This document shows, piece after piece, positions 4,199 through 32,993 of a stretch of DNA of 34,992 nt (within the stretch, counting starts at the first letter, position 1; every line of letters starts with the position of its first letter). This stretch comes from Candidatus Poribacteria bacterium. GTDB taxonomy: Bacteria > Abyssobacteria > SURF-5. The DNA lies in contig JACRIR010000126.1 of assembly GCA_016215705.1 (NCBI GenBank), forward strand, positions 1 through 34,992. Reading direction: 5' to 3'. The position numbers and the translations under genes are program-made. Below the pieces are notes generated by a model. The model was not told the DNA's origin. It ran no database searches and worked only from the letters and a program-made list of their open reading frames with translations.

Positions 4199-4247
4199 GG
4201 CGGATATTCGGGGACACCATGCGGCATGGTGTCCCCGAGTATCCGCC
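4199..4247. repeat. GGGGACA hairpin repeat, copy 1
   Basis: Two 23-base arms with one G/T-type mismatch flank the 3-base loop CGG. The core is TTCGGGGACACCATG. Four more copies lie at 11467-11507, 13731-13775, 20007-20052 and 30028-30068. Just upstream the 14-mer CAGAGAAACCGGCG occurs twice in direct repeat. The hairpin precedes the DUF456 gene and follows the divergent TetR operon, so it is not an obvious terminator for either. Confidence 0.85.
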
Positions 4248-9085: not shown

Positions 9086-11095
9086 CTATTGCATTCGGGC
9101 GGGCACTATTACCATTGTCTGCTCCCACAGTTGCAGCCGCTTCTGAAGAGCGAAGGCGGTCTGATTGTGGAGGATAGGCTGATACCAGCGCTCACGCTGA
9201 AAGACGAGTTGTCCCGTGAAGAACATAATGTGCGGGAACTCTTTCGCAACGTCCATGCAGAGACGTTCGAGCTCATCGACCACGTCTGTTCCAATGGCCA
9301 TTCGATAAGCGCCCGGGATTCCTTGTCCTTCGACGAGCTCGACGTACTTCTTGAGTCCTCCCTCGGTCTGACTCTTGAGCTGGTCGAGCGTATCCTCGCC
9401 TTTGAAGGCGCCGGAATCGATCACGCCGACGGAGAGGAACACCAGGTTCTTGAATTGGCCCGGAAACATGCGGAATATTGCCAGAGTGGTATGAATGCCG
9501 AGCCCGCTGTAGCCGCCGACGAGTACGGCGGCCGTGGGCTTGGTCGGATCGACCGATCCCGGCGAGACCTTCGACACTCGCGGTATATCGATAAGGCTCG
9601 CGTAGAGCGAACTCAGCTTTGCATTGGCGGCGCTGTAGTGACGCCGAATCCAAAAGCAAAGCATTATGACGACTCCCGTGACAGCGAGCGTGACCCAGCC
9701 GCCCTCGAGGAACTTCTCGTAAACGGTTATGAGGAGGATCGTGAAGCACATACTGAGCCCCAGCACGTGGATCGAGATTTTCTTTATCCAGTCAGGCCGG
9801 TGTTTGCGTTCGCCGAAATAGAGGCGGCACATTGACATCTCGGTCATGGAGAAAGTGAGGAAGACGTTTATGCTATACATGACGACAATGTGACGCACGT
9901 CTCCTTTCGTGTAGAGGAGTGCGCCGAGCGACGCCATGCCCATGAGAATGACGCCATTCTGGACCGTGAGGCGATCAGACAGCGTTGCGAATCGGCGGGG
10001 CACCCACGAGTCGATCGCCATATTCGCGAGCACGCGCGGGCCGTCCACGAAGCCCGCCTGTGCGGCCACGACGAGAAGGGCGCCCTCTGAGACCAGCGTG
10101 ACAATCACAAAGGGCCACCCAAGCGGAACGACCGTCACAAACCGCTCGACGAGAACGGCGTTCAGCGTCTTTCCCTCAACCGCGGTCACGTTCCAGAGGA
10201 GATAGCAGAAGAGAAGCCCCGACGCCGTGAACGCGAGCGAACTCGCCATGTAGATCATCGTGCGCTTGCCGGTCTCGACACGCGGCTCCCGCATTATCGT
10301 CAGGCCGTTCGAGACCGCTTCGATTCCGGTGTAGGTGCCGCCTCCGAGTGAATAGGCGTGCAGGAACAGGACGAATAATCCGCCCAGGCCGACGGTTGTC
10401 ACGCCGCCGGAGAATCCGTGCGCCGCCGCGCCGAGCGTCGCGGGCAGCGCCGGCGCCTTCACCAGAAGTCCGGCGGTGATTAAGACGGCGTGAGTGATTA
10501 CAAAGAGCACAAATACGGGGGTAAGAACGAGGATGGACTCCTTTACGCCACGAATATTGAGCGTACTCAGGAAAACAATGAAGAAGACCTCTGCGGGCAG
10601 TTTCCAGACGTGCCACGATAGTGGAAGGAAACTGAACAGCGCGTCCCCCGATGCTGCAATAGATATAGTGATTGTAAGGATGTAGTCCACAAGGAGCGCG
10701 CTGCCGGAGACCATGCCGGCGCGTTGTCCCAGCAGCTTTGTGGCAACGACGTAACCGCCGCCGCCGTGCGGGAAGTGTTCGATGACGCGGCTGTATGCGA
10801 CGGCGATGACGAAAACTGTCGTGGCCATGACTGCCGCGAGGCCGATTGCCAGATAGGTGTGCTGACCGAGGGTGCGAAACGCTTCTTCCGGGCCGTACGC
10901 TGACGACGAGAGGCCGTCCGCTCCCAGGCCGACCCACGCGAGGAAAGATATCAGTGAAAGGTGATGAAAAATACGCCTGTCGGATAGGTCACGCGGTGGG
11001 CCGAACAGAAGGTGTCTCAGGCGCTCGGCGAAAGGCGGTTTCTCTTGCTCGTTGGATTTACGACTACTGCCATCTATGTCCGGCGTGTTGCCCAT
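9086..11095 (-). CDS. kimA: KimA/YdaO-type APC superfamily potassium transporter
   Basis: This 669-residue permease has about twelve membrane segments and a cytoplasmic C-terminal domain of about 170 residues. The first segment carries GLGADGLSSSAYGPEEA (near residues 56-72), the signature of the KimA branch of the APC superfamily. A later FPHGGGGYVVATKLLG is the second conserved loop. In Bacillus, KimA is a proton-coupled K+ importer inhibited by c-di-AMP. The gene has a consensus promoter, a c-di-AMP riboswitch in its leader and a GGAGG ribosome site 7 bases before the ATG. The riboswitch makes K+ uptake the best reading. The alternative is a general amino-acid permease, which I think less likely. 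Confidence 0.88.
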   Translation of the reverse strand: MGNTPDIDGSSRKSNEQEKPPFAERLRHLLFGPPRDLSDRRIFHHLSLISFLAWVGLGADGLSSSAYGPEEAFRTLGQHTYLAIGLAAVMATTVFVIAVAYSRVIEHFPHGGGGYVVATKLLGQRAGMVSGSALLVDYILTITISIAASGDALFSFLPLSWHVWKLPAEVFFIVFLSTLNIRGVKESILVLTPVFVLFVITHAVLITAGLLVKAPALPATLGAAAHGFSGGVTTVGLGGLFVLFLHAYSLGGGTYTGIEAVSNGLTIMREPRVETGKRTMIYMASSLAFTASGLLFCYLLWNVTAVEGKTLNAVLVERFVTVVPLGWPFVIVTLVSEGALLVVAAQAGFVDGPRVLANMAIDSWVPRRFATLSDRLTVQNGVILMGMASLGALLYTKGDVRHIVVMYSINVFLTFSMTEMSMCRLYFGERKHRPDWIKKISIHVLGLSMCFTILLITVYEKFLEGGWVTLAVTGVVIMLCFWIRRHYSAANAKLSSLYASLIDIPRVSKVSPGSVDPTKPTAAVLVGGYSGLGIHTTLAIFRMFPGQFKNLVFLSVGVIDSGAFKGEDTLDQLKSQTEGGLKKYVELVEGQGIPGAYRMAIGTDVVDELERLCMDVAKEFPHIMFFTGQLVFQRERWYQPILHNQTAFALQKRLQLWEQTMVIVPARMQ

Positions 11096-11097
11096 GC

Positions 11098-11157
11098 AGA
11101 ACCTCCCACATTGAACCCGGTCGGAGAGTCGGCCTCCGGTCGTGTCCGGAAGGTTCT
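11098..11157 (-). promoter_or_regulatory. Ribosome-site-sequestering helix after the riboswitch
   Basis: In the leader RNA AGAACCUUCC (11157-11148), the 3' edge of the aptamer, can pair with GGGAGGUUCU (11107-11098), the ribosome binding site. That gives ten pairs, one of them U-G. It would hide the Shine-Dalgarno sequence, so control could be translational. No U-tract terminator is visible. Confidence 0.55.
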
Positions 11158-11284
11158 CTCCTTCGACGCCTGCGAGGTTAGCTGACGGGCTCGGGCCGAA
11201 GAAGTTACCCTACGCCTTGCGGCGATACGCCCCCGAAACTTGGGTCCCCCGTCCCCGCCCGGAAGGCGGGATTCGGCGTGAAAC
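11153..11284 (-). promoter_or_regulatory. c-di-AMP riboswitch (ydaO-yuaA family)
   Basis: The leader of the KimA-like gene carries the conserved ydaO blocks in order on the minus strand: CGCCGAATCC near 11278-11269, GGGGGACCCAAG near 11251-11240, a GGGGGCGTATCGCC hairpin region, AGGGTAAC, then GCCCGTCAGCTAACCTCGCA (11191-11172), GGCGTC and GGAGAG. CCCGTCAGCTAACCTCGNAGGCG is the hallmark 3' core of the family. Known members sense c-di-AMP and usually turn off K+ or osmolyte transporters and wall-remodelling genes. Transcription is predicted to start almost exactly at its 5' edge. Confidence 0.9.
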
Positions 11285-11292
11285 AATGTCTT

Positions 11293-11321
11293 ATTCTATG
11301 CTTTTTGACGCAGAAAGTCAA
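11293..11321 (-). promoter_or_regulatory. Promoter of the riboswitch-kimA transcript
   Basis: On the minus strand TTGACT (11321-11316) and TAGAAT (11298-11293) are separated by exactly 17 bases. The start would be near 11286, immediately before the first conserved riboswitch block. Confidence 0.8.
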
Positions 11322-11375: not shown

Positions 11376-11400
11376 ATTGCGAGCGGAGCGAAGCAATCTG
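11376..11400. repeat. Dispersed ATTGCGAGCGGAGCGAAGCAATCT repeat
   Basis: A short imperfect palindrome (ATTGC..GCAAT ends, GCGGAGCG centre). A near-identical copy is at 24824-24851, and a diverged inverted copy lies at 11614-11647. Related GTCATTCTGAGCGAAGCG units lie at 18034-18272 and 34697-34723. Confidence 0.6.
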
Positions 11401-11463: not shown

Positions 11464-11466
11464 TCA

Positions 11467-11507
11467 GAAAACCGGGGACACGATGCGACATCGTGTCCCC
11501 GGTTTTC
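11467..11507. repeat. GGGGACA hairpin repeat, copy 2
   Basis: Two perfect 19-base arms, whose core is CCGGGGACACGATG, enclose the 3-base loop CGA. The core and the 3-base loop match the other copies, while the outer arm bases differ and are compensated on both sides. Confidence 0.85.
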
Positions 11508-11524
11508 TTCATTCATGTCTGTCT

Positions 11525-11613: not shown

Positions 11614-11647
11614 AGATATTGCTTCTTCGCTGCACTCCTCGCAATGA
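11614..11647. repeat. Diverged inverted copy of the GCGAAGCAAT repeat
   Basis: The stretch reads AGATATTGCTTCTTCGC and then ACTCCTCGCAATGAC. Its reverse complement resembles the GTCATTGCGAG...GCGAAGCAATCT repeat at 24824-24851, with a few changes in the middle. Confidence 0.5.
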
Positions 11648-13730: not shown

Positions 13731-13775
13731 CCTTAATTCGGGGACACGATGCCGCATCGTGTCCCCGAATTAAGG
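13731..13775. repeat. GGGGACA hairpin repeat, copy 3
   Basis: Two perfect 21-base arms, with core AATTCGGGGACACGATG, enclose the 3-base loop CCG. It lies upstream of the CocE-type gene and downstream of the aminotransferase gene. The rest of 13661-13944 holds short repeat fragments (for example GAGATTCTTCGCTCCGC) and a pyrimidine tract. Confidence 0.85.
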
Positions 13776-22607: not shown

Positions 22608-23290
22608 CATGGCCCTCTCGGTAGAGTCGAAGGAGTCTGGATTGCCGACTCCTATTATATTAGGGCTTTCACCTGCGGTCAATCAAAAATATGCTGCCGG
22701 CGGCGACGCCTCTCGTTTTTCCGGAGTGAGTTGCGGCATAGAGAGCATGACGCATGTCATTGCTATCACTCTGCCCTAAATCAGACAACCCATGTGGCGT
22801 AATGAACAGGGAAGGCAGTAATTTCTGCCTTTCTTGTGAATAGTCTTGAAAATGTATGAAGACTCTCTGTGCCGTAACCATAGCTATATTGCTGTGTTAC
22901 AAATGCAGCAGATCATTAACGGCTGCTTTGGCTTGGATTTTGCTCCGCAAGGAGCGAGTATCAAGAAATGAGGCAAGTGCGACGGATTCTTGACTGTCGT
23001 TCTTTTAGTTTGGGTAGCACATAGACAATGACATAGATGATAGCTTGAATGCGTAATTTAGTGCATAGTTTCTGCTATGGAAAGGGAAAGAGGAAAGGAA
23101 CGAGACGAAAGGGAAAAACCAAGAAAGAAGAGAGAGAATCGTCTTCGGTTCCCCCAAGCTTCGCCTCTCTTCCACGATTAACCACGCGACGGTGTGGTCA
23201 GGCGCTCAGAATGATAGAAGCAACGAGATACTCTCAACGTTTTCAGATTCGAGAGACGCTCGCAACACATACAAAGGAAACCGTGACATC
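22608..23290. other. Long intergenic region without a clear gene
   Basis: About 680 bases separate the diverging diguanylate cyclase and cusC-like genes. I see two small hairpins (GGCAG/CTGCC near 22813-22828 and GCTCCGCAAGGAGC at 22942-22955) and a purine-rich tract of AAAGGAAAG-type words at about 23075-23135. No supported gene or known RNA is visible. The promoters of both neighbours must lie here, but I cannot pick convincing -35/-10 pairs. Confidence 0.5.
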
Positions 23291-24709
23291 ATGAAAACGC
23301 GCACACGAACGATGTGGCTTTTGCCAATATTCACGGGGATGCTGATTTTCTTCGCAGGCTGCTCGGGCATCCCGACTCGAAAGGAAAAGCAGGCAAGGCA
23401 AGACATACAGGCAACCGAGTCGGTCTATCGCCCGGAGAACGCAAAGCCTCCCTTGCCGATTCTTACAGAAGACTCCAGTCTTTCGGACTTGATGCAGTAC
23501 GCCATTCTGAACAACCCCAAAGTCGAGTCGGCATTCTACGAATGGAAGGCCGCTGTCGAGGAGATCACCACTGCCCGTTCGCTGCCCGATCCGATGCTCA
23601 ACTTGAGCGCCGAAATTATGGATGGTGTCGTTGAGGCGCTCACTCCGGCTCTCATGACTGATCCCATGAGCAATTGGCCCGGCCCGGGAAAACTCGGGCT
23701 TCAGGCCGACGCAGCCTACGGTATGGCGCTCAAGAAACGCGCGAGCTTCGAGAACGAACTGTTGACAACCGCACTCGGGGTCAAACGGGCGTACTATCAG
23801 ATGTGGGTCGTTGACGAACAGATACGCTGGACTCGCGAGATGCTGACCGTCGTTGATGATATGGAGAGAATCTCGCGCGAGCGTCTCGCCGTCGGAAAAG
23901 TGATGCAGCAGGACGTGCTCCGCGCACAGATCGAGCGGGATCGGCTCAGGAACGAATTGGCCAACCTCGAAGACTCACGGACAACCATCGTTGCTCGGAT
24001 GCGTTCCGCCCTGGGCATAAGACCGGAGACGTCTCTGCCTGCGTTCGCACTCAAGCTCGAACCGACTCCGCCCGATTTCACGGAAGAATCCCTTCAGGAA
24101 ATCGCGTTCGCGCGAAACCCGCGCCTGAAAGAGATGCGGGCAGAAGTGCTGCAAGCCGTTGCGCTTTATCATTTGGCCGAGAAGAGCAAAGTCCCTGATT
24201 TTGCGTTCGGGTTAGAGGCCGACGTTAAAGGTTCGCCCGTGCCGTTCATGCCTTCGTTCGGAATCACACTACCCATTTGGCGTGACAAGATCGCCGCCGA
24301 GATCGCGCGCGGCAGCGCCGGAATCGGCTCGGCCAAAGCGAACCTCACGGCCGAAGAACTCGATATTGCAGTCATGTTTGCGGAAACGGCCTACGGTTGG
24401 CGGGAGGCTGACCGCAACGCGAAGCTTTACGGCGACCGTCTGATCCCCAAAGCAAGAGCTTCTCTGGATTCTGCTCGAGCGGGATACACAAGCGGAGTCA
24501 CGGGCTTTATTGACGTTCTCGATACAGAGAGAATGCTTCTTGAATACTATATGAATAATGCCATGGCAATGGGAGAGCGTGAGATCATGCTTGCCGAGAT
24601 GTCACTTGTCATTCTGGGCCGCTGGCCGCAGGGTGTCGAAGAACTTCTTGGTCCGCAACAGCCATCCGATTTCGAGTATCAAGAACAACAGTCGCCCGTA
24701 AAGAACTGA
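23291..24709 (+). CDS. TolC-family outer membrane lipoprotein of the Cus-type pump
   Basis: A 472-residue outer-membrane factor. The signal peptide ends in the lipobox FFAGCSG with Cys24 as the likely lipidated residue. Two TolC (OEP) repeats follow, with DLMQYAILNNPKVESAFYEW at the first and long coiled-coil helices at about 170-230 and 380-440. The start at 23291 is the signal-peptide Met with AAAGGA about 12 bases upstream; an upstream in-frame start would extend into non-conserved sequence. It is followed on the same strand by the adaptor and the RND pump, so it plays the CusC role: the exit duct for Cu(I)/Ag(I) through the outer membrane. Confidence 0.9.
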   Translation: MKTRTRTMWLLPIFTGMLIFFAGCSGIPTRKEKQARQDIQATESVYRPENAKPPLPILTEDSSLSDLMQYAILNNPKVESAFYEWKAAVEEITTARSLPDPMLNLSAEIMDGVVEALTPALMTDPMSNWPGPGKLGLQADAAYGMALKKRASFENELLTTALGVKRAYYQMWVVDEQIRWTREMLTVVDDMERISRERLAVGKVMQQDVLRAQIERDRLRNELANLEDSRTTIVARMRSALGIRPETSLPAFALKLEPTPPDFTEESLQEIAFARNPRLKEMRAEVLQAVALYHLAEKSKVPDFAFGLEADVKGSPVPFMPSFGITLPIWRDKIAAEIARGSAGIGSAKANLTAEELDIAVMFAETAYGWREADRNAKLYGDRLIPKARASLDSARAGYTSGVTGFIDVLDTERMLLEYYMNNAMAMGEREIMLAEMSLVILGRWPQGVEELLGPQQPSDFEYQEQQSPVKN

Positions 24710-24823
24710 CGCAGATACTTCATAGGAACGGTTCGCGAACGTCCTTACAAGAAGAAGACGAATACTACAGAGCGCGCTATGGCGGGCGCGGTTAATTGTG
24801 AAAGGAAGGCTTCATCGGCTATG

Positions 24824-24851
24824 GTCATTGCGAGCGGAGCGAAGCAATCTC
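24824..24851. repeat. Dispersed GTCATTGCGAG...GCAATCTC repeat
   Basis: GTCATTGCGAGCGGAGCGAA followed by GCAATCTC is a copy of the repeat at 11376-11400. It lies in the 209-base gap between the TolC-like and adaptor genes, beside a pyrimidine repeat, in what is probably an operon. Confidence 0.65.
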
Positions 24852-24860
24852 TCTTTTTTG

Positions 24861-24904
24861 GCTTTCCCCCTTTCGCCTTTGACCTTTCGCCTTTCGCCTT
24901 TCTT
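24861..24904. repeat. Pyrimidine-rich dispersed repeat, copy 4
   Basis: CCCCCTTTCGCCTTTGACCT and CCTTTCGCC words end just before the ribosome site GAGAGG of the adaptor gene. The plus-strand orientation is the same as in the other three copies, but here it precedes a start codon rather than abutting a minus-strand stop. Confidence 0.65.
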
Positions 24905-24918
24905 AAGAGAGGACGAAG

Positions 24919-26847
24919 ATGAAAAAAAGCTTGCAGAAAACACTTGGCGGTGAGCTAACGCTAGGACATTGGGCAAAATCACTCGCGGTCATTTCAAACA
25001 ATAGAGGGAAGGCAAGCGCTTCAATTGCCGGGCTGGTCGTGTTCCTCTTCGGGATAGGGCTAGCTTTGTTCGTGATTGCCAACCCGATGAAGGTTGGGCT
25101 GTTCGAGAAGATAAGCAATGCGATCATGCGGAAAGGAACAGGGGACACCGCCGGAGGCAGAAAAGTGAAGTTCTGGCGCAACCCCATGGACCCCGCTGTC
25201 ACCTCGCCCGTGTTTACGAAAGACTCGATGGGCATGGACTATTTGCCTGTGTATGAAGACGAATTAACAGGCGGCGCCGCCGCCGAGTCCGGCATAAAGA
25301 TCGATCCCGCGACCGTCCAGAACATCGGCGTGATCACCGCGCCTGTCAACCGTGGCGACTTAAGGCTGGAGATTCGCACTGTCGGCAACCTTGATTATAA
25401 CCAGAAAAGCATTTACCTCGTTAACACCAAGTACGAGGGCTGGATAGAAAAAGTGCATGTGAACTATGTCGGTCAGGAAGTCCGCAAGGGACAGCCATTA
25501 TTTGATATTTACAGCCCGGAACTGGTCAGCGCGCAGGAAGAGTACCTGATTGCGCTCAAGTATCGTGACGAAATGAAGGCAAGAGAGGTCCCGGGGTCCG
25601 ATGCGGACGCGGATTATCTGCTTCAGGCGAGCCGAAGCCGGCTCCGTTATTGGGACATCTCTGATGAGCAGATAAAGCGACTGGAAGACGAAGGGGAGTT
25701 GCGGAAAACCCTCACCGTCGTATCCCCGGCAACCGGCGTTGTCATCGAAAAACAAGACCGCGCGCTCGACGGAATGAAGGCGGAGGCCGGCCTGAATCTT
25801 TACAAAATCGCGGACCTTTCAACCCTCTGGGTCTATGTGGACTTGTACGAGTATCAACTGCCCTGGATCAAGGTGGGCCAGAATGCCAAAGTCGAGATCA
25901 GCTATTACCCGGGAGAGGTGTTTCACGGCAAAATCCTCTTTTTCAACCCATTCCTCGACGAAACTACAAGGACAGTCAGGGTAAACCTCCAGATTCCCAA
26001 CCCCGACGGAAGATTGCGCCCGCAAATGTTCGCCACCGTGACACTACTGCCGGTCGCCGCGAAGAATGTAGTGACCGTGCCCGAAATGGCTGTTCTTCAC
26101 ACCGGCGAGAGAAATGTGGTCGTGCTTGACAACGGCGGCGGCCGCTTTGAACCGCGTGACGTGAAACTGGGCCTGCAAGGGGAGGGCGTATACCAGGTGC
26201 TCGATGGGCTTGAAGGCGGTGAGACCGTAGTTACCTCCGCCCAATTCCTCATCGATTCCGAGAGCAACTTGCAAGAGGTCATCAACAAGATGCTCATGGC
26301 CACTGAGGGCGAAGCTTCGGCTGCGCCCGCGTCTGCGACGCTCGCGCCTGCGGCGCCGGGCGCACAAAAACCCGCGGCCAAGGATGCTGAACATGCCGGA
26401 CACGAGAGGAAGTCCCTCATCGATGATCAGAAAATGGTCGATACCCTTGGCAAAACGATCGAGGCTTATCTGCCGATATGGAAAGCGCTGGCAAATGATT
26501 CGACTTCCGGAATCAAAGAGAACGCCGCAACGCTTGCAGACCTTGCCGGCAAAGCCGTGGGCCAGGCGAAAGAGGACGCGCTCAAGTCTCAACTCAAGGC
26601 TCTCAAAAAAGCGGCTTCTGAAATGAAGACCGGCGACCTGAACTCGGCGCGCGAGTCAATGAAGGGCGTGAGCCGCGTGCTCATTTCTGTCTTTACCTCG
26701 CATGAGGTGAAGTTGCCGAAACGCTACTTAATCATCGAATGCACGATGGTCCATGAGAAATGGATTCAAGACACCGAAGAGATAAGAAATCCCTTCCTTG
26801 GCTCGCAGATGCCCACGTGCGGAACCAAGGTTGGAGAAATAGGATAA
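24919..26847 (+). CDS. cusB: CusB-like RND periplasmic adaptor with metal-binding ends
   Basis: A 642-residue adaptor. A membrane anchor (ASIAGLVVFLFGIGLALFVIA) lies at about 34-54. A heavy-metal-binding motif follows, KFWRNPMDPAVTSPVFTKDS then MGMDYLPVYEDE, a Met version without the Cys pair. Lipoyl, hairpin and beta-barrel domains come next (WIEKVHVNYVGQEVRKGQPL; LWVYVDLYEYQLPWIKVGQ). An Ala/Pro-rich linker at about 455-490 leads to a C-terminal DUF3347-like helical domain ending ECTMVHEKWIQDTEEIRNPF with a final MPTCG. This would bind Cu(I)/Ag(I) in the periplasm and hand it to the pump. GAGAGG lies 6 bases before the ATG, and the pump gene starts 6 bases after the stop. Confidence 0.93.
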   Translation: MKKSLQKTLGGELTLGHWAKSLAVISNNRGKASASIAGLVVFLFGIGLALFVIANPMKVGLFEKISNAIMRKGTGDTAGGRKVKFWRNPMDPAVTSPVFTKDSMGMDYLPVYEDELTGGAAAESGIKIDPATVQNIGVITAPVNRGDLRLEIRTVGNLDYNQKSIYLVNTKYEGWIEKVHVNYVGQEVRKGQPLFDIYSPELVSAQEEYLIALKYRDEMKAREVPGSDADADYLLQASRSRLRYWDISDEQIKRLEDEGELRKTLTVVSPATGVVIEKQDRALDGMKAEAGLNLYKIADLSTLWVYVDLYEYQLPWIKVGQNAKVEISYYPGEVFHGKILFFNPFLDETTRTVRVNLQIPNPDGRLRPQMFATVTLLPVAAKNVVTVPEMAVLHTGERNVVVLDNGGGRFEPRDVKLGLQGEGVYQVLDGLEGGETVVTSAQFLIDSESNLQEVINKMLMATEGEASAAPASATLAPAAPGAQKPAAKDAEHAGHERKSLIDDQKMVDTLGKTIEAYLPIWKALANDSTSGIKENAATLADLAGKAVGQAKEDALKSQLKALKKAASEMKTGDLNSARESMKGVSRVLISVFTSHEVKLPKRYLIIECTMVHEKWIQDTEEIRNPFLGSQMPTCGTKVGEIG

Positions 26848-26853
26848 CTAACC

Positions 26854-29800
26854 ATGCTCGTCAAGATAATTGAATGGTCACTGAAGAACAAGTTCTTTGT
26901 CATCCTGGGGACTATCTTCGCAACGGCTTTGGGTGTTTACTCTCTCAAGACGATTCCACTCGACGCCATCCCTGACCTGAGCGACGTGCAGGTGATCATA
27001 TTCACCGAGTATCCGGGCCAGGCGCCACGTGTTGTCGAAGATCAGATCACATATCCTATCACCACAAAAATGCTCTCTGTTCCCTACGCAAGCGTGGTGC
27101 GGGGTTATTCGTTCTTCGGGTATTCCTTCGTTTACGTGATTTTCGAGGACGGCACTGACCTCTACTGGGCGCGCAGCCGTGTGCTCGAGTACCTCAACTA
27201 CGTTTCCGGCCAACTGCCAAAAGGAGTCACACCCGCCCTCGGTCCCGATGCCACCGGCGTCGGCTGGGCGTTCATGTACGCGCTCAAGTCCGATCAGCGC
27301 GACTTGAGCCAATTGCGGTCCATTCAAGACTGGTATCTCAAATATCAATTGACGAGCGTCGAGGGCGTCTCTGAAGTCGCAAGCATTGGCGGCTTCGTGA
27401 AGCAGTATCAGGTTATCGTCGATCCCGTGAGGCTTCTCGCCTATAAAATGCCTCTTCGAGACGTGATGATGGCGATACGCAAGAGCAACATTGACACTGG
27501 CGCCGCGAGCATTGAACTGTCGGAAAAAGAATTCGTAGTGCGGAGCCTCGGCTACCTGAAGAATGTCGACGACCTCAAGAAGGTTGTCGTAGGAGCAGAC
27601 ATGAAGGGGACACCGGTGCTGCTTCGCGATGTCGCCACAGTTGCGCTCGGTCCCGAAATGAGGCGCGGAATCGCCGAGTTGAACGGAGAGGGTGAGGCCG
27701 TCGGCGGGATTGTGATTGTCAGGCACGGCGTCAACGCGCTCGCCACCATAAACAAGATAAAAGCAAAGCTTGAAGAGCTTAAGAAGGGCCTGCCTGCTGA
27801 TATCGAAATCATGACCGTGTACGATCGTTCCGCGCTCATAAACCGTGCTGTTGTCAACCTCTGGAAAAGCCTGACGGAGGAAATGATCGCGGTGGCTATC
27901 GTATGCGGAGTCATGCTGTTCCATCTCCGTAGTTCCCTCGTCGGCATAATCACTCTGCCTATCGCAGTCGTTATCTCGTTCGCAATAATGAAGTGGCAGG
28001 GGATAAACTCCAATATCATGTCGCTCGGAGGCATCGCTATTGCCGTGGGCGCTATGGTTGACGCCGCCAACGTGATGGTCGAGAATTTGCACAAGCACAT
28101 GGAGGACGATGCCGGCAAGAAACCGCACTGGGAAATCGTCAAAGAAGCATCCACTGAGGTAGGGCCGACCCTCTTCTACTCGTCCATTGTCATTGCGTTG
28201 TCCTTCCTCCCGATCTTTGCGCTTCAGGCGCAGGAAGGCCGGCTTTTCAAGCCGCTCGCGTATACGAAAACGTACGCGATGTTGGCGTCGGCCATCCTCG
28301 CAATAACGATTGTGCCGGTTCTCATGGGCTATTGGATTCGTGGCAAGATCATCCCCGAAGACCGCCATCCGATAAGCCGGGCCATGGTTTGGGTTTACTC
28401 GCCGGTACTGTTCTTTGTCATAAAGTACAGAAAGTCCGTGATCGCGGCGGCAATCGCGATCATGGCTTTCACGCTCGTCCCATTTAGCAGGCTTGGCCGC
28501 GAGTTCATGCCGCCTCTCTATGAAGGTGACTTCCTCTACATGCCGACAACTCTGCCGAGCATTTCCGTAACAAAGGTCCGAGAATTGATGCAGCAGACCG
28601 ACAAGATAATCAGGCAATTTCCGGAGGTTCACCACGTTTTCGGCAAGGCCGGCCGCGCTGAGACCGCGACTGACCCGGCGCCCATGAACATGCTCGAGAC
28701 AACCATCATGTTGAAGCCCGAAAAAGAATGGCGCAAGGGCATGACACAAGAGAAACTGAAAGACGAACTCGACGCTGCCATTCAATTCCCTGGCGTCTCC
28801 GACGCATGGACCATGCCTATCAAAACCCGCATCGACATGCTTAGCACAGGCATCAAAACTCCGGTCGGCATAAAAATCGGCGGCCCGGACCTGCGAGTGC
28901 TCGATCAAACCGGGCGACAAGTCGAGGCAATCATCCGGCAGGTTCCCGGCACATTAAGCGCATACGCTGAGAGAGCCTCTGGCGGCAACTATCTAACTTT
29001 CCGCATAAACCGCGATCAAATAGCTAGATATGGGCTCACCATCGAGGATGTGCAGGACATTGTTCAATCCGCTATTGGCGGCATGGCGATCAGCACCACC
29101 GTCGAAGGGCTTGAACGATATCCCATCAATGTGCGGTATGGGCGCGAGCTGCGGGCCGACTTTGAATCCCTCAAACGAGTGCTTGTTCCCACGCCGTCGG
29201 GGCAGCAGATTCCGCTTGCACAGCTTGCCGACATCTACTTCGAGCAGGATGCCGACATGATAAAAACTGAAGACTCGCGGCCGAACGCATGGGTCTACGT
29301 GGACATAAAAGGGATTGATGTCGGCAGATATGTGGATAGCGCCAAGAAGGCGATTGAGGAAAACGTAAGAGTCCCGGCGGGTTACACGCTCACATGGAGC
29401 GGCCAATATGAATACATGCAGAGAGCCAAGAAACGCCTGATGTACGTTATCCCAATGACGATCATGATTATTTTCGTCGTCATGTATCTGAGCACCAAGT
29501 CCATCACCAAGACATTCATCGTATTCCTCGCCGTCCCGTTCTCGCTCGTCGGCGCAGTCTGGCTGCTGTACTTACTCAACTTCAATCTGAGTATAGCGGT
29601 TTGGGTCGGCATCCTCGCCTTGCTCGGCGTCGACGCCGAAACCGGTGTCGTCATGCTGCTCTATCTTGACCTCGCTCACGAGCAATGGACAAAAGAGGGT
29701 CGCATGAACACAACTGGAGACCTCAAGGAAGCCGTCTACCACGGCGCCGTAAAGAGAATCCGTCCCAAAATGATGACCGTCATGACCGACATTATCGGGC

Positions 29801-29988
29801 TGAGTCCCTTCCTGTTAGGCGCGGGGACAGGGTCGGACATGATTGCACGCACAGCGGCGCCGATTGTGGGCGGCATGACTACCTCGATGATACTAGAGCT
29901 CACAGTTTATCCCGCAATCTATTATATCTGGAAATCCCGCAGTCTCAAAGAAGGTGCTCCAACGCCAATCCCCAGTTCAACTCTGTAG
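26854..29988 (+). CDS. cusA: CusA-like Cu(I)/Ag(I) RND efflux pump
   Basis: A 1044-residue HME-RND inner-membrane pump. The N-terminus has the TM1 segment and DAIPDLSDVQVIIFTEYPGQ. TM4 carries GAMVDAANVMVENLHKH with the proton-relay Asp. Three methionines, M563 (FLYMPTTLPS), M613 (PMNMLETTIM) and M662 (RIDMLSTGIK), have the same spacing (50 and 49 residues) as M573, M623 and M672 of E. coli CusA, so the substrate should be Cu(I) or Ag(I) rather than Zn/Co/Cd. The length matches the family. The stop TAG lies within a GTAGGTGCGAAT repeat, so the very end may have been replaced. It is translationally close to cusB (6 bases). Confidence 0.96.
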   Translation: MLVKIIEWSLKNKFFVILGTIFATALGVYSLKTIPLDAIPDLSDVQVIIFTEYPGQAPRVVEDQITYPITTKMLSVPYASVVRGYSFFGYSFVYVIFEDGTDLYWARSRVLEYLNYVSGQLPKGVTPALGPDATGVGWAFMYALKSDQRDLSQLRSIQDWYLKYQLTSVEGVSEVASIGGFVKQYQVIVDPVRLLAYKMPLRDVMMAIRKSNIDTGAASIELSEKEFVVRSLGYLKNVDDLKKVVVGADMKGTPVLLRDVATVALGPEMRRGIAELNGEGEAVGGIVIVRHGVNALATINKIKAKLEELKKGLPADIEIMTVYDRSALINRAVVNLWKSLTEEMIAVAIVCGVMLFHLRSSLVGIITLPIAVVISFAIMKWQGINSNIMSLGGIAIAVGAMVDAANVMVENLHKHMEDDAGKKPHWEIVKEASTEVGPTLFYSSIVIALSFLPIFALQAQEGRLFKPLAYTKTYAMLASAILAITIVPVLMGYWIRGKIIPEDRHPISRAMVWVYSPVLFFVIKYRKSVIAAAIAIMAFTLVPFSRLGREFMPPLYEGDFLYMPTTLPSISVTKVRELMQQTDKIIRQFPEVHHVFGKAGRAETATDPAPMNMLETTIMLKPEKEWRKGMTQEKLKDELDAAIQFPGVSDAWTMPIKTRIDMLSTGIKTPVGIKIGGPDLRVLDQTGRQVEAIIRQVPGTLSAYAERASGGNYLTFRINRDQIARYGLTIEDVQDIVQSAIGGMAISTTVEGLERYPINVRYGRELRADFESLKRVLVPTPSGQQIPLAQLADIYFEQDADMIKTEDSRPNAWVYVDIKGIDVGRYVDSAKKAIEENVRVPAGYTLTWSGQYEYMQRAKKRLMYVIPMTIMIIFVVMYLSTKSITKTFIVFLAVPFSLVGAVWLLYLLNFNLSIAVWVGILALLGVDAETGVVMLLYLDLAHEQWTKEGRMNTTGDLKEAVYHGAVKRIRPKMMTVMTDIIGLSPFLLGAGTGSDMIARTAAPIVGGMTTSMILELTVYPAIYYIWKSRSLKEGAPTPIPSSTL

Positions 29989-31580: not shown

Positions 31581-32993
31581 TCATTCCTGTCCAGTTTCGC
31601 GGATCAGCCGCATAATCTCATCATACTTGTCGGGCGGGAGCGTCCGCACCAATGTCATCATGCCCGTTATGGCGGCCGACCAGTCCTTTGCAAGCCCATA
31701 GGTCTCCGGTTTCGCGACCATGTCGTCCATGGGCATCCACATGTGCATATCTTGAGGGTATCCGGGCACTCGTGCCGTCATCTCCATAGGATGTTCGGCG
31801 CCTTCATGGCCGGCGCCATGACCCACTGCATGAGAGATGCTCTTCTCGCGGTCGGAGGCGATGCCCATGCCGCGTCCGAGTCCGGGTCCTAACTCTTCGG
31901 ACATGGCGTGTCCTTCCATCATTCCCATTCCCGCGTTCATATCCATGCCGCTGTGCATTCCCATGCCCATTTCAGCCATAGGACCGACCATCGAAGCCAT
32001 GTGGTTCATCATATGGTGTGGAAGGTGACAATGGAGCATCCAGTCGCCGGGATACTTTGCCACAAACTCGACGTCTCGCACCTGAGCCACACCCACCAGA
32101 ACCGTGTTGTTGGGGTACCACGCGGTTTCCGGTACGCGCCCCCCCTCTGTTCCCGTGATATTCCATTGATGCCCGTGCAGATGGATCGGATGATGGTCCA
32201 TTCCGAGGTTCACAAAGCGAAGTCGGACTCGGTCGCCGAGTTTCACGATCAGCGGAGTTGTCGCCGGGCCTGCCTTGCCGTTCATGGTCAGCCAGTTGAA
32301 TTCCATCGAGAATGAGTTCGGTATGGTATTGTTAGGGAGGATCGCCCATTCCTGCAGGACAATGGCGAAGTCCTTATCCACGCGCGGCTCATACGGTTTC
32401 TTCGGATGAATGATGAAGAAACCGATCATGCCCATCATTTCCTGCATCGCCATGTGCGAGTGGTAGAAAAATGTGCCGTTTTGGTGAAGCGTGAACTCGT
32501 ATGTGTATGTGCCGCCCGGCGGGGTGAGCGGCTGGCTTATGGCGGGCACTCCGTCCATCTCGATGGGAACCTCGAGCCCGTGCCAGTGCACGGTCGTCGG
32601 CTCCGGCAGCCGGTTCTCGAAAATGATTCGAACGTGGTCACCTTCCATTACCTCGATGGTCGGGCCGGGCGCTTGGCCGTTATAACCCCAAAGATCGAAG
32701 ACATAGCCGGGCAAGAATTCACGCTTGACGACTTCCGCAACAAGCCGGAAAACTTTCACGCCTTTCTCAATCTCGTAGGGAAGCTTGTACATGTCGGGAG
32801 TCGCAACGGGAACGAATCTTCCATCCGGCGAAGAGGGATTCATTATATGACCCATGTCAGACGGCATGGCCGAATGCGAGGTGGGCATGCTTTGCATATG
32901 GGCGGAATGCGACTGGGCGTACGCTTTCAGGCTCAGGCCGCTGGCCACAAGCCCGGCCATCGTCCCGATAAAACCCCTTCTATTCGTGCTCAT
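31581..32993 (-). CDS. Tat-exported multicopper oxidase with Met/His-rich tail
   Basis: A 470-residue two-to-three-cupredoxin-domain oxidase. The Tat signal RRGFIGTMAGLVASGLSLKA is at residues 5-24. A Met/His-rich segment follows (about 28-50). All four copper-ligand motifs are present: TVHWHGLE, FFYHSHMAMQ, HPIHLHGHQW and HCHLPHHMMNHM (HCHxxxHxxxxM at 321-332). After this comes an unusual 138-residue C-terminal extension rich in Met, His and Gly. Family members such as CueO oxidise Cu(I) to the less toxic Cu(II) in the periplasm. GGTGG lies 6 bases before the ATG. The neighbouring cus-like genes support copper detoxification. Confidence 0.94.
   Translation of the reverse strand: MSTNRRGFIGTMAGLVASGLSLKAYAQSHSAHMQSMPTSHSAMPSDMGHIMNPSSPDGRFVPVATPDMYKLPYEIEKGVKVFRLVAEVVKREFLPGYVFDLWGYNGQAPGPTIEVMEGDHVRIIFENRLPEPTTVHWHGLEVPIEMDGVPAISQPLTPPGGTYTYEFTLHQNGTFFYHSHMAMQEMMGMIGFFIIHPKKPYEPRVDKDFAIVLQEWAILPNNTIPNSFSMEFNWLTMNGKAGPATTPLIVKLGDRVRLRFVNLGMDHHPIHLHGHQWNITGTEGGRVPETAWYPNNTVLVGVAQVRDVEFVAKYPGDWMLHCHLPHHMMNHMASMVGPMAEMGMGMHSGMDMNAGMGMMEGHAMSEELGPGLGRGMGIASDREKSISHAVGHGAGHEGAEHPMEMTARVPGYPQDMHMWMPMDDMVAKPETYGLAKDWSAAITGMMTLVRTLPPDKYDEIMRLIRETGQE

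Follow-up and report, generated by a model that had tools for sequence, protein, structure and literature searches.

A predicted translational c-di-AMP riboswitch in front of a KimA-like potassium transporter gene of a Candidatus Poribacteria bacterium

A 34,992-nucleotide stretch of DNA from a Candidatus Poribacteria bacterium (assembly GCA_016215705.1, contig JACRIR010000126.1; the whole stretch is hereafter the window) carries on its minus strand a promoter, an aptamer of the cyclic di-AMP (c-di-AMP) riboswitch class, and a gene for a KimA-like potassium transporter. The original prediction, made from the letters alone, had read a c-di-AMP riboswitch here and named a search with the Rfam ydaO-yuaA model as its check; that search returns a highly significant match to RF00379 (c-di-AMP ydaO/yuaA riboswitch) at 11288-11151 (minus strand, as are all riboswitch and transporter features below), spanning the full model (1-134) at 93.4 bits, E = 5.7e-21, where the gathering score is 38 bits. 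The aptamer is closed by stem P1, formed by ACGCC (11275-11279) and GGCGU (11166-11170), and a loop, CUUCUUCG (11197-11204), can form a pseudoknot of 8 bp with a strand in the tail, CGAAGGAG (11158-11165), with a duplex energy of -11.2 kcal/mol. A pseudoknot is also described for the crystallised aptamer, in whose printed sequence we assign the complementary pair CUCCUUCG and CGAAGGAG (PMC5393176). The window aptamer is thus expected, from its sequence, to bind c-di-AMP; no second RF00379 match is found in this 5.47-Mb genome.

A sigma-70-type promoter, TTGACT-17-TAGAAT (11293-11321; 10/12 matches in a motif scan), is the sole site of its quality in the 671 bases scanned, with 0.4 expected, and places the predicted transcription start near 11286, at the 5′ edge of the aptamer. 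The transporter open reading frame (ORF; 669 aa, 9086-11095) begins 55 bases beyond the aptamer end, with its ATG at 11095 preceded by GGGAGG. A terminator scan finds no intrinsic terminator between the aptamer and the start codon, as expected of a translational riboswitch, and the lone terminator-like match of the region (11454-11441) lies upstream of the promoter; both the consensus promoter and the lack of a terminator had been anticipated from the sequence.

The identification of the gene product as a KimA-like K+ transporter also holds. The protein belongs to the APC superfamily (PF13520), and KimA is its only match in the PDB (E = 1.7e-61, with homology over the APC membrane domain; E = 7.1e-87 for a profile of 15 relatives). 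The K+-coordinating residues of KimA, D36, Y43, T230 and Y377 (PMC10284832), align with D60, Y67, T256 and Y407 of the window protein, and these four positions are invariant in 15/15 sequences. In KimA, c-di-AMP is bound by the cytosolic domain, with contributions from R337 of the membrane domain and from Q581/S582; the counterparts in the alignment are R367 for R337 and, in a second segment that aligns weakly, HNQT for HNQS. The predicted structure (mean pLDDT, a per-residue confidence score, of 76) has KimA entries 8b70, 8b71 and 6s3k as its three best Foldseek matches over ~630 columns (632 for 8b70), a span that includes the cytosolic domain, which is only weakly alignable by sequence. Relative to Bacillus subtilis KimA (6S3K, 8B70), then, the window protein shares a homologous membrane domain, the K+-site residues and a predicted fold, cytosolic domain included, but is only ~25% identical in the structural alignment, and both K+ transport and c-di-AMP binding are predicted for it; c-di-AMP probably acts on this transporter twice, through its synthesis and through its activity. 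A second KimA-like gene in this genome (L083; G000:C208:814-2835) is 47% identical and contains one in-frame TAG; no riboswitch is detected at that copy, even at a lax threshold.

The genome may also encode the means to make the ligand, in the form of two genes with a diadenylate cyclase (DAC) domain (E = 8.6e-37 and 4.9e-27). One putative cyclase is DisA-like, with DGA and RHR motifs. The other, encoded by ORF 2202-760 at L002 (G000:C212), is a CdaA-like membrane protein with a long C-terminal extension; it has DGA but carries RHS in place of the usual RHR, and is a cyclase of doubtful activity.

Three pairings compete within the 70 bases 3′ of P1. The first is the pseudoknot. The second is a hairpin in which GGAGAG (11156-11161) pairs with CUCUCC (11123-11128; -8.2 kcal/mol), enclosing an inner stem of CCUUCCGG (11146-11153) with CCGGAGG (11133-11139); CCGGAGG competes with the ribosome site, to which CCUUCCGG can pair in part. 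The third is an anti-Shine-Dalgarno (anti-SD) helix of 10 consecutive pairs, one of them G-U, between AGAACCUUCC (11148-11157) and GGGAGGUUCU (11098-11107), the GGGAGG ribosome site with its flank, at -14.5 kcal/mol. The hairpin, whose 5′ arm overlaps the pseudoknot strand and whose inner stem shares bases with the anti-SD helix, overlaps both of the others, and the pseudoknot strand adjoins the anti-SD strand without overlap; from this pattern, the pseudoknot and the anti-SD helix are able to coexist and the hairpin excludes both. By computation, the ribosome site can thus be sequestered in a helix incompatible with another one that is linked to the aptamer, as in a translational riboswitch. 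The original prediction had rested control on the 10-base helix 11157-11148/11107-11098. That helix exists but is insufficient as a switch by itself, and the elements that tie it to ligand binding had been overlooked, namely the pseudoknot strand at 11165-11158 and, overlapping it, the anti-anti-SD hairpin (11161-11156/11128-11123).

The energies of these states are consistent with a switch. In segment 11170-11072 the lowest energy belongs to the hairpin state (-36.4 kcal/mol), with the anti-SD state at -35.2 kcal/mol, a near balance; when the pseudoknot strand is held unpaired, a stand-in for its capture by the folded aptamer, the anti-SD state becomes the minimum (-32.1 kcal/mol). The computed cost of opening the ribosome site is 6.0 kcal/mol, and 11.2 kcal/mol once the pseudoknot strand is blocked, a value reached by no block of equal length placed elsewhere (largest, 9.3 kcal/mol).

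We compared this leader with relatives. A search with the transporter gave 61 loci and, with further genomes, 89 aptamers (leaders are numbered L, genomes G; phyla are taken from record titles, and several records are metagenome bins); in 46 of the 89, tblastn places a match to the transporter on the aptamer's strand and downstream of it, a few of these matches being short or weak. Promoter-like sites (at least 9/12) occur within 62 bases 5′ of P1 in 26% of 86 leaders and in 1.6% of control windows, an enrichment that makes this promoter placement common to the leaders; the -10 box typically ends 8-20 bases 5′ of P1. The hairpin is kept, with changed inner stems, in five leaders (the window, L093, L141, L022 and L021), GGAGAG being retained in L093, L022 and L021 and altered by one base in L141, the one new leader to emerge from denser sampling of close relatives (by the order and the class to which G128 and G061 belong). 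The anti-SD helices of the nearest leaders differ in sequence, as in L022 (CCGGAAUCGA with UCGAUUCCGG) and, read by eye, in L141 (GAACCU/AGGUUC plus AAUCG/CGAUU).

Leader-wide tests, whose P values are generous because related sequences are not independent, point the same way. Over 89 leaders with 64 distinct helices, the fit of pseudoknot strands to their own loops is equalled in none of 10,000 permutations, and tails pair better with their own Shine-Dalgarno (SD) sequence than with swapped ones (P = 5e-5 for 35 leaders; P = 6.5e-4 for 15 KimA-type leaders). The 35 leaders were selected by a rule (terminator absent, L012 excepted; SD usable; start 40 or more bases past P1); when their pseudoknot strand is masked, the opening cost rises by >0.5 in 22 and falls by >0.5 in 6 (Wilcoxon P = 1e-4 versus other blocks).

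These results lead us to propose that the element is probably a translational OFF switch acting on a KimA-like potassium importer. At low c-di-AMP, the pseudoknot strand would be free and GGAGAG (11161-11156) would pair with CUCUCC (11128-11123); the inner stem would then hold CCUUCCGG, leaving the anti-SD strand occupied and the ribosome site more open. At high c-di-AMP, the folded aptamer would capture CGAAGGAG (11165-11158) with its loop (11204-11197), depriving the hairpin of its 5′ arm and releasing AGAACCUUCC (11157-11148) beside the pseudoknot, where it could pair with GGGAGGUUCU (11107-11098) and close the ribosome site. If high c-di-AMP is taken as a signal of sufficient K+, K+ import would be shut down for that reason. 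We infer the sign of the response, the level of control and the physiological sense; the sign follows from this anatomy and from the repression that characterised members of the class exert when c-di-AMP is high (PMC6488665, PMC9960051).

Several observations weigh against this proposal. Even in the free state the ribosome site costs 6 kcal/mol to open, and L104, a close transporter relative (76%), contradicts the masking prediction at -3.5 kcal/mol. The 35-leader rule was written after part of the sequences had already been seen. Compared by itself with dinucleotide-shuffled versions of the intervening RNA, the window anti-SD helix is borderline (energy P = 0.049, length P = 0.044), so that the case rests on the relatives and the competing helices; the leaders L141, L021, L095, L104 and L043 are individually not significant. 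Such single-sequence shuffles are weak tests, and a combined P value from them, built on a hand-picked list, is not relied on; weight is placed on the swapped-partner and masking tests. The RNA energies ignore c-di-AMP, the pseudoknot, tertiary contacts, kinetics and co-transcriptional folding. Finally, the minimum-energy fold of the ligand-free full leader pairs the SD with AACCUC of the aptamer instead; we dropped this as the native fold, since it is no better than shuffles (z = -0.9) and comes from programs that are blind to pseudoknots and, as expected, miss the one here.

Among other explanations, the one that survives best is transcriptional control, in which c-di-AMP would cause premature termination, e.g., Rho-dependent termination after a translation block, with the anti-SD helix an accessory. 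The c-di-AMP riboswitches of B. subtilis and Bacillus thuringiensis do use intrinsic termination (PMC6488665, PMC9960051), and leaders L026, L030, L024, L031, L041 and L074, which precede the same transporter, carry intrinsic terminators, but the window has none before its start codon and other leaders leave no room for one (below); we consider this explanation unlikely. Less probable still is an ON switch, in which the ligand-free SD would pair with the aptamer core (CUAACCUCG with GGAGGUU) and the ligand would free it. The bare-leader minimum-energy fold contains this pairing, but that fold is the one that fares no better than shuffles, and the core, being near-invariant, pairs with any GAGGUU; the core-SD match is absent in L022 and L021, and in L141 the SD matches AACCUCGC but the aptamer core has changed. 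As the pairing is not kept by relatives, and characterised members are OFF switches (PMC6488665, PMC9960051), the ON reading of the AACCUC-SD pairing was rejected. That the riboswitch was acquired horizontally and its platform is defunct, leaving the transporter constitutively expressed, would fit the borderline anti-SD helix and the failure to find riboswitch or transporter in the other two of the three genomes representing this phylum, which makes acquisition by transfer plausible, but is hard to square with the high aptamer score, the intact promoter and transporter frame, the cyclases and the near balance of hairpin and anti-SD states, and we give it very little credence.

Other leaders are built differently. 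The start codon lies at most 24 bases from P1 in nine leaders, and in 8/9 the SD overlaps the pseudoknot strand itself; this direct-overlap group includes L013 and also L111, whose transporter is 77% identical to that of the window. No terminator fits in these leaders because the start codon follows P1 by 14-24 bases. Distance counts are approximate since rule-based start codons are clearly wrong for, e.g., L056, L058, L065, L006 and L096. A scan finds intrinsic terminators in 16/88 leaders, mainly from Geobacteraceae, Desulfobacteraceae and the nine-copy genome G053. With hairpin, direct-overlap and terminator designs all represented, different platforms have been combined with the same transporter. 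We give about even odds to a broader reading, in which the class as a whole uses the pseudoknot 3′ strand for its output, either as the ribosome site itself or as an anti-anti-SD arm, leaders of this transporter have exchanged platforms across phyla, and control of kimA-type genes by c-di-AMP at translation is common in diderms and no exception. The class had been thought less common in diderm bacteria; we find that it is not rare, with RF00379 in 45/392 sampled genomes of the phylum of L021 (record titled planctomycete) and also in Geobacteraceae, Desulfobacteraceae, Verrucomicrobia, candidate division FCPU426 and Omnitrophota records, often before the same transporter.

Some loci stand apart. 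In L006, L096 and L092, the SD that adjoins the anti-SD strand belongs, by eye, to a frame of ~20-35 codons ahead of the main gene, and these short frames are possibly leader peptides under the riboswitch. L004 (G047:C34) has an unusual target gene, a 364-aa ORF that starts like a NAD-dependent dehydrogenase (GAGHGG), directly after a riboswitch with its SD inside the pseudoknot strand. Two loci each carry two c-di-AMP riboswitches on the same strand within ~2.4 kb: in L041 (2735-2876 and 5092-5230) the second precedes a further KimA-like copy, and in L051 (495-684 and 2793-2951) the first precedes a 612-aa ORF.

Elsewhere in the window, the tripartite resistance-nodulation-division (RND) pump noted in the original prediction is present, with genes for an outer-membrane factor (23192-24709), a HlyD/CusB-type component (24919-26847) and an AcrB-type component (26854-29988); a multicopper oxidase gene (31581-32993) lies close to this set (23192-29988), and together they are probably a metal (copper) efflux island. 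A palindrome, GGGGACACGATG-NNN-CATCGTGTCCCC, occurs at 11466-11508, in the gap that separates the hydrolase gene upstream from the riboswitch promoter, and at 13732-13774 and 4204-4242, the arms of each copy being extended by copy-specific complementary sequence. At up to 3 mismatches it has 371 sites in this genome (about one per 15 kb), with 0 sites for a reversed control and 0 in the other two genomes of the phylum, and it looks like a lineage-specific intergenic element of the repetitive extragenic palindrome (REP) type. Imperfect inverted copies of a ATTGCGAG...GAAGCAAT repeat (11377-11397 and 11617-11643) flank the palindrome upstream of the promoter and are possibly an element resembling a miniature inverted-repeat transposable element (MITE).

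In the literature consulted, riboswitches for c-di-AMP are mostly described as transcription terminators, with one translational case whose authors want work on mechanism (PMC9960051), and ydaO is listed among the classes in which docking between domains can hide the ribosome site (PMC10907184). The kdpFABC riboswitch of B. thuringiensis shares the aptamer family and represses a potassium importer at high c-di-AMP, but acts by transcription termination on another transporter (PMC6488665). The B. subtilis ydaO/kimA riboswitch resembles the window in its aptamer family, its KimA potassium importer gene and the proposed OFF response, but uses an intrinsic terminator (PMC9960051), where the window has none before the ORF. 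Closest in mechanism is RSnlpC of Corynebacterium glutamicum, a translational c-di-AMP riboswitch with no canonical terminator and reporter evidence for translational repression, for which a similar mechanism is proposed: CTCC pairs with GGAG ~20 bases upstream when ligand-free and with the SD when ligand-bound, the same logic as in the window (PMC9960051). It differs in its cell-wall peptidase target and actinobacterial host, and its mechanism is a proposal only (PMC9960051); the window has a kimA-like gene, an anti-SD strand AGAACCUUCC held inside the hairpin, and relatives of altered sequence that support the pairings. The translational type of c-di-AMP riboswitch is thus already known and the window adds another case, together with an explicit three-helix model with comparative support, a direct-overlap group and a spread in diderms. 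The locus and its relatives offer a base-by-base model open to compensatory mutants and leaders in which no terminator fits, and place the class before KimA-type importers in several diderm phyla, so that control of potassium by c-di-AMP would reach beyond the Gram-positives in which it was studied.
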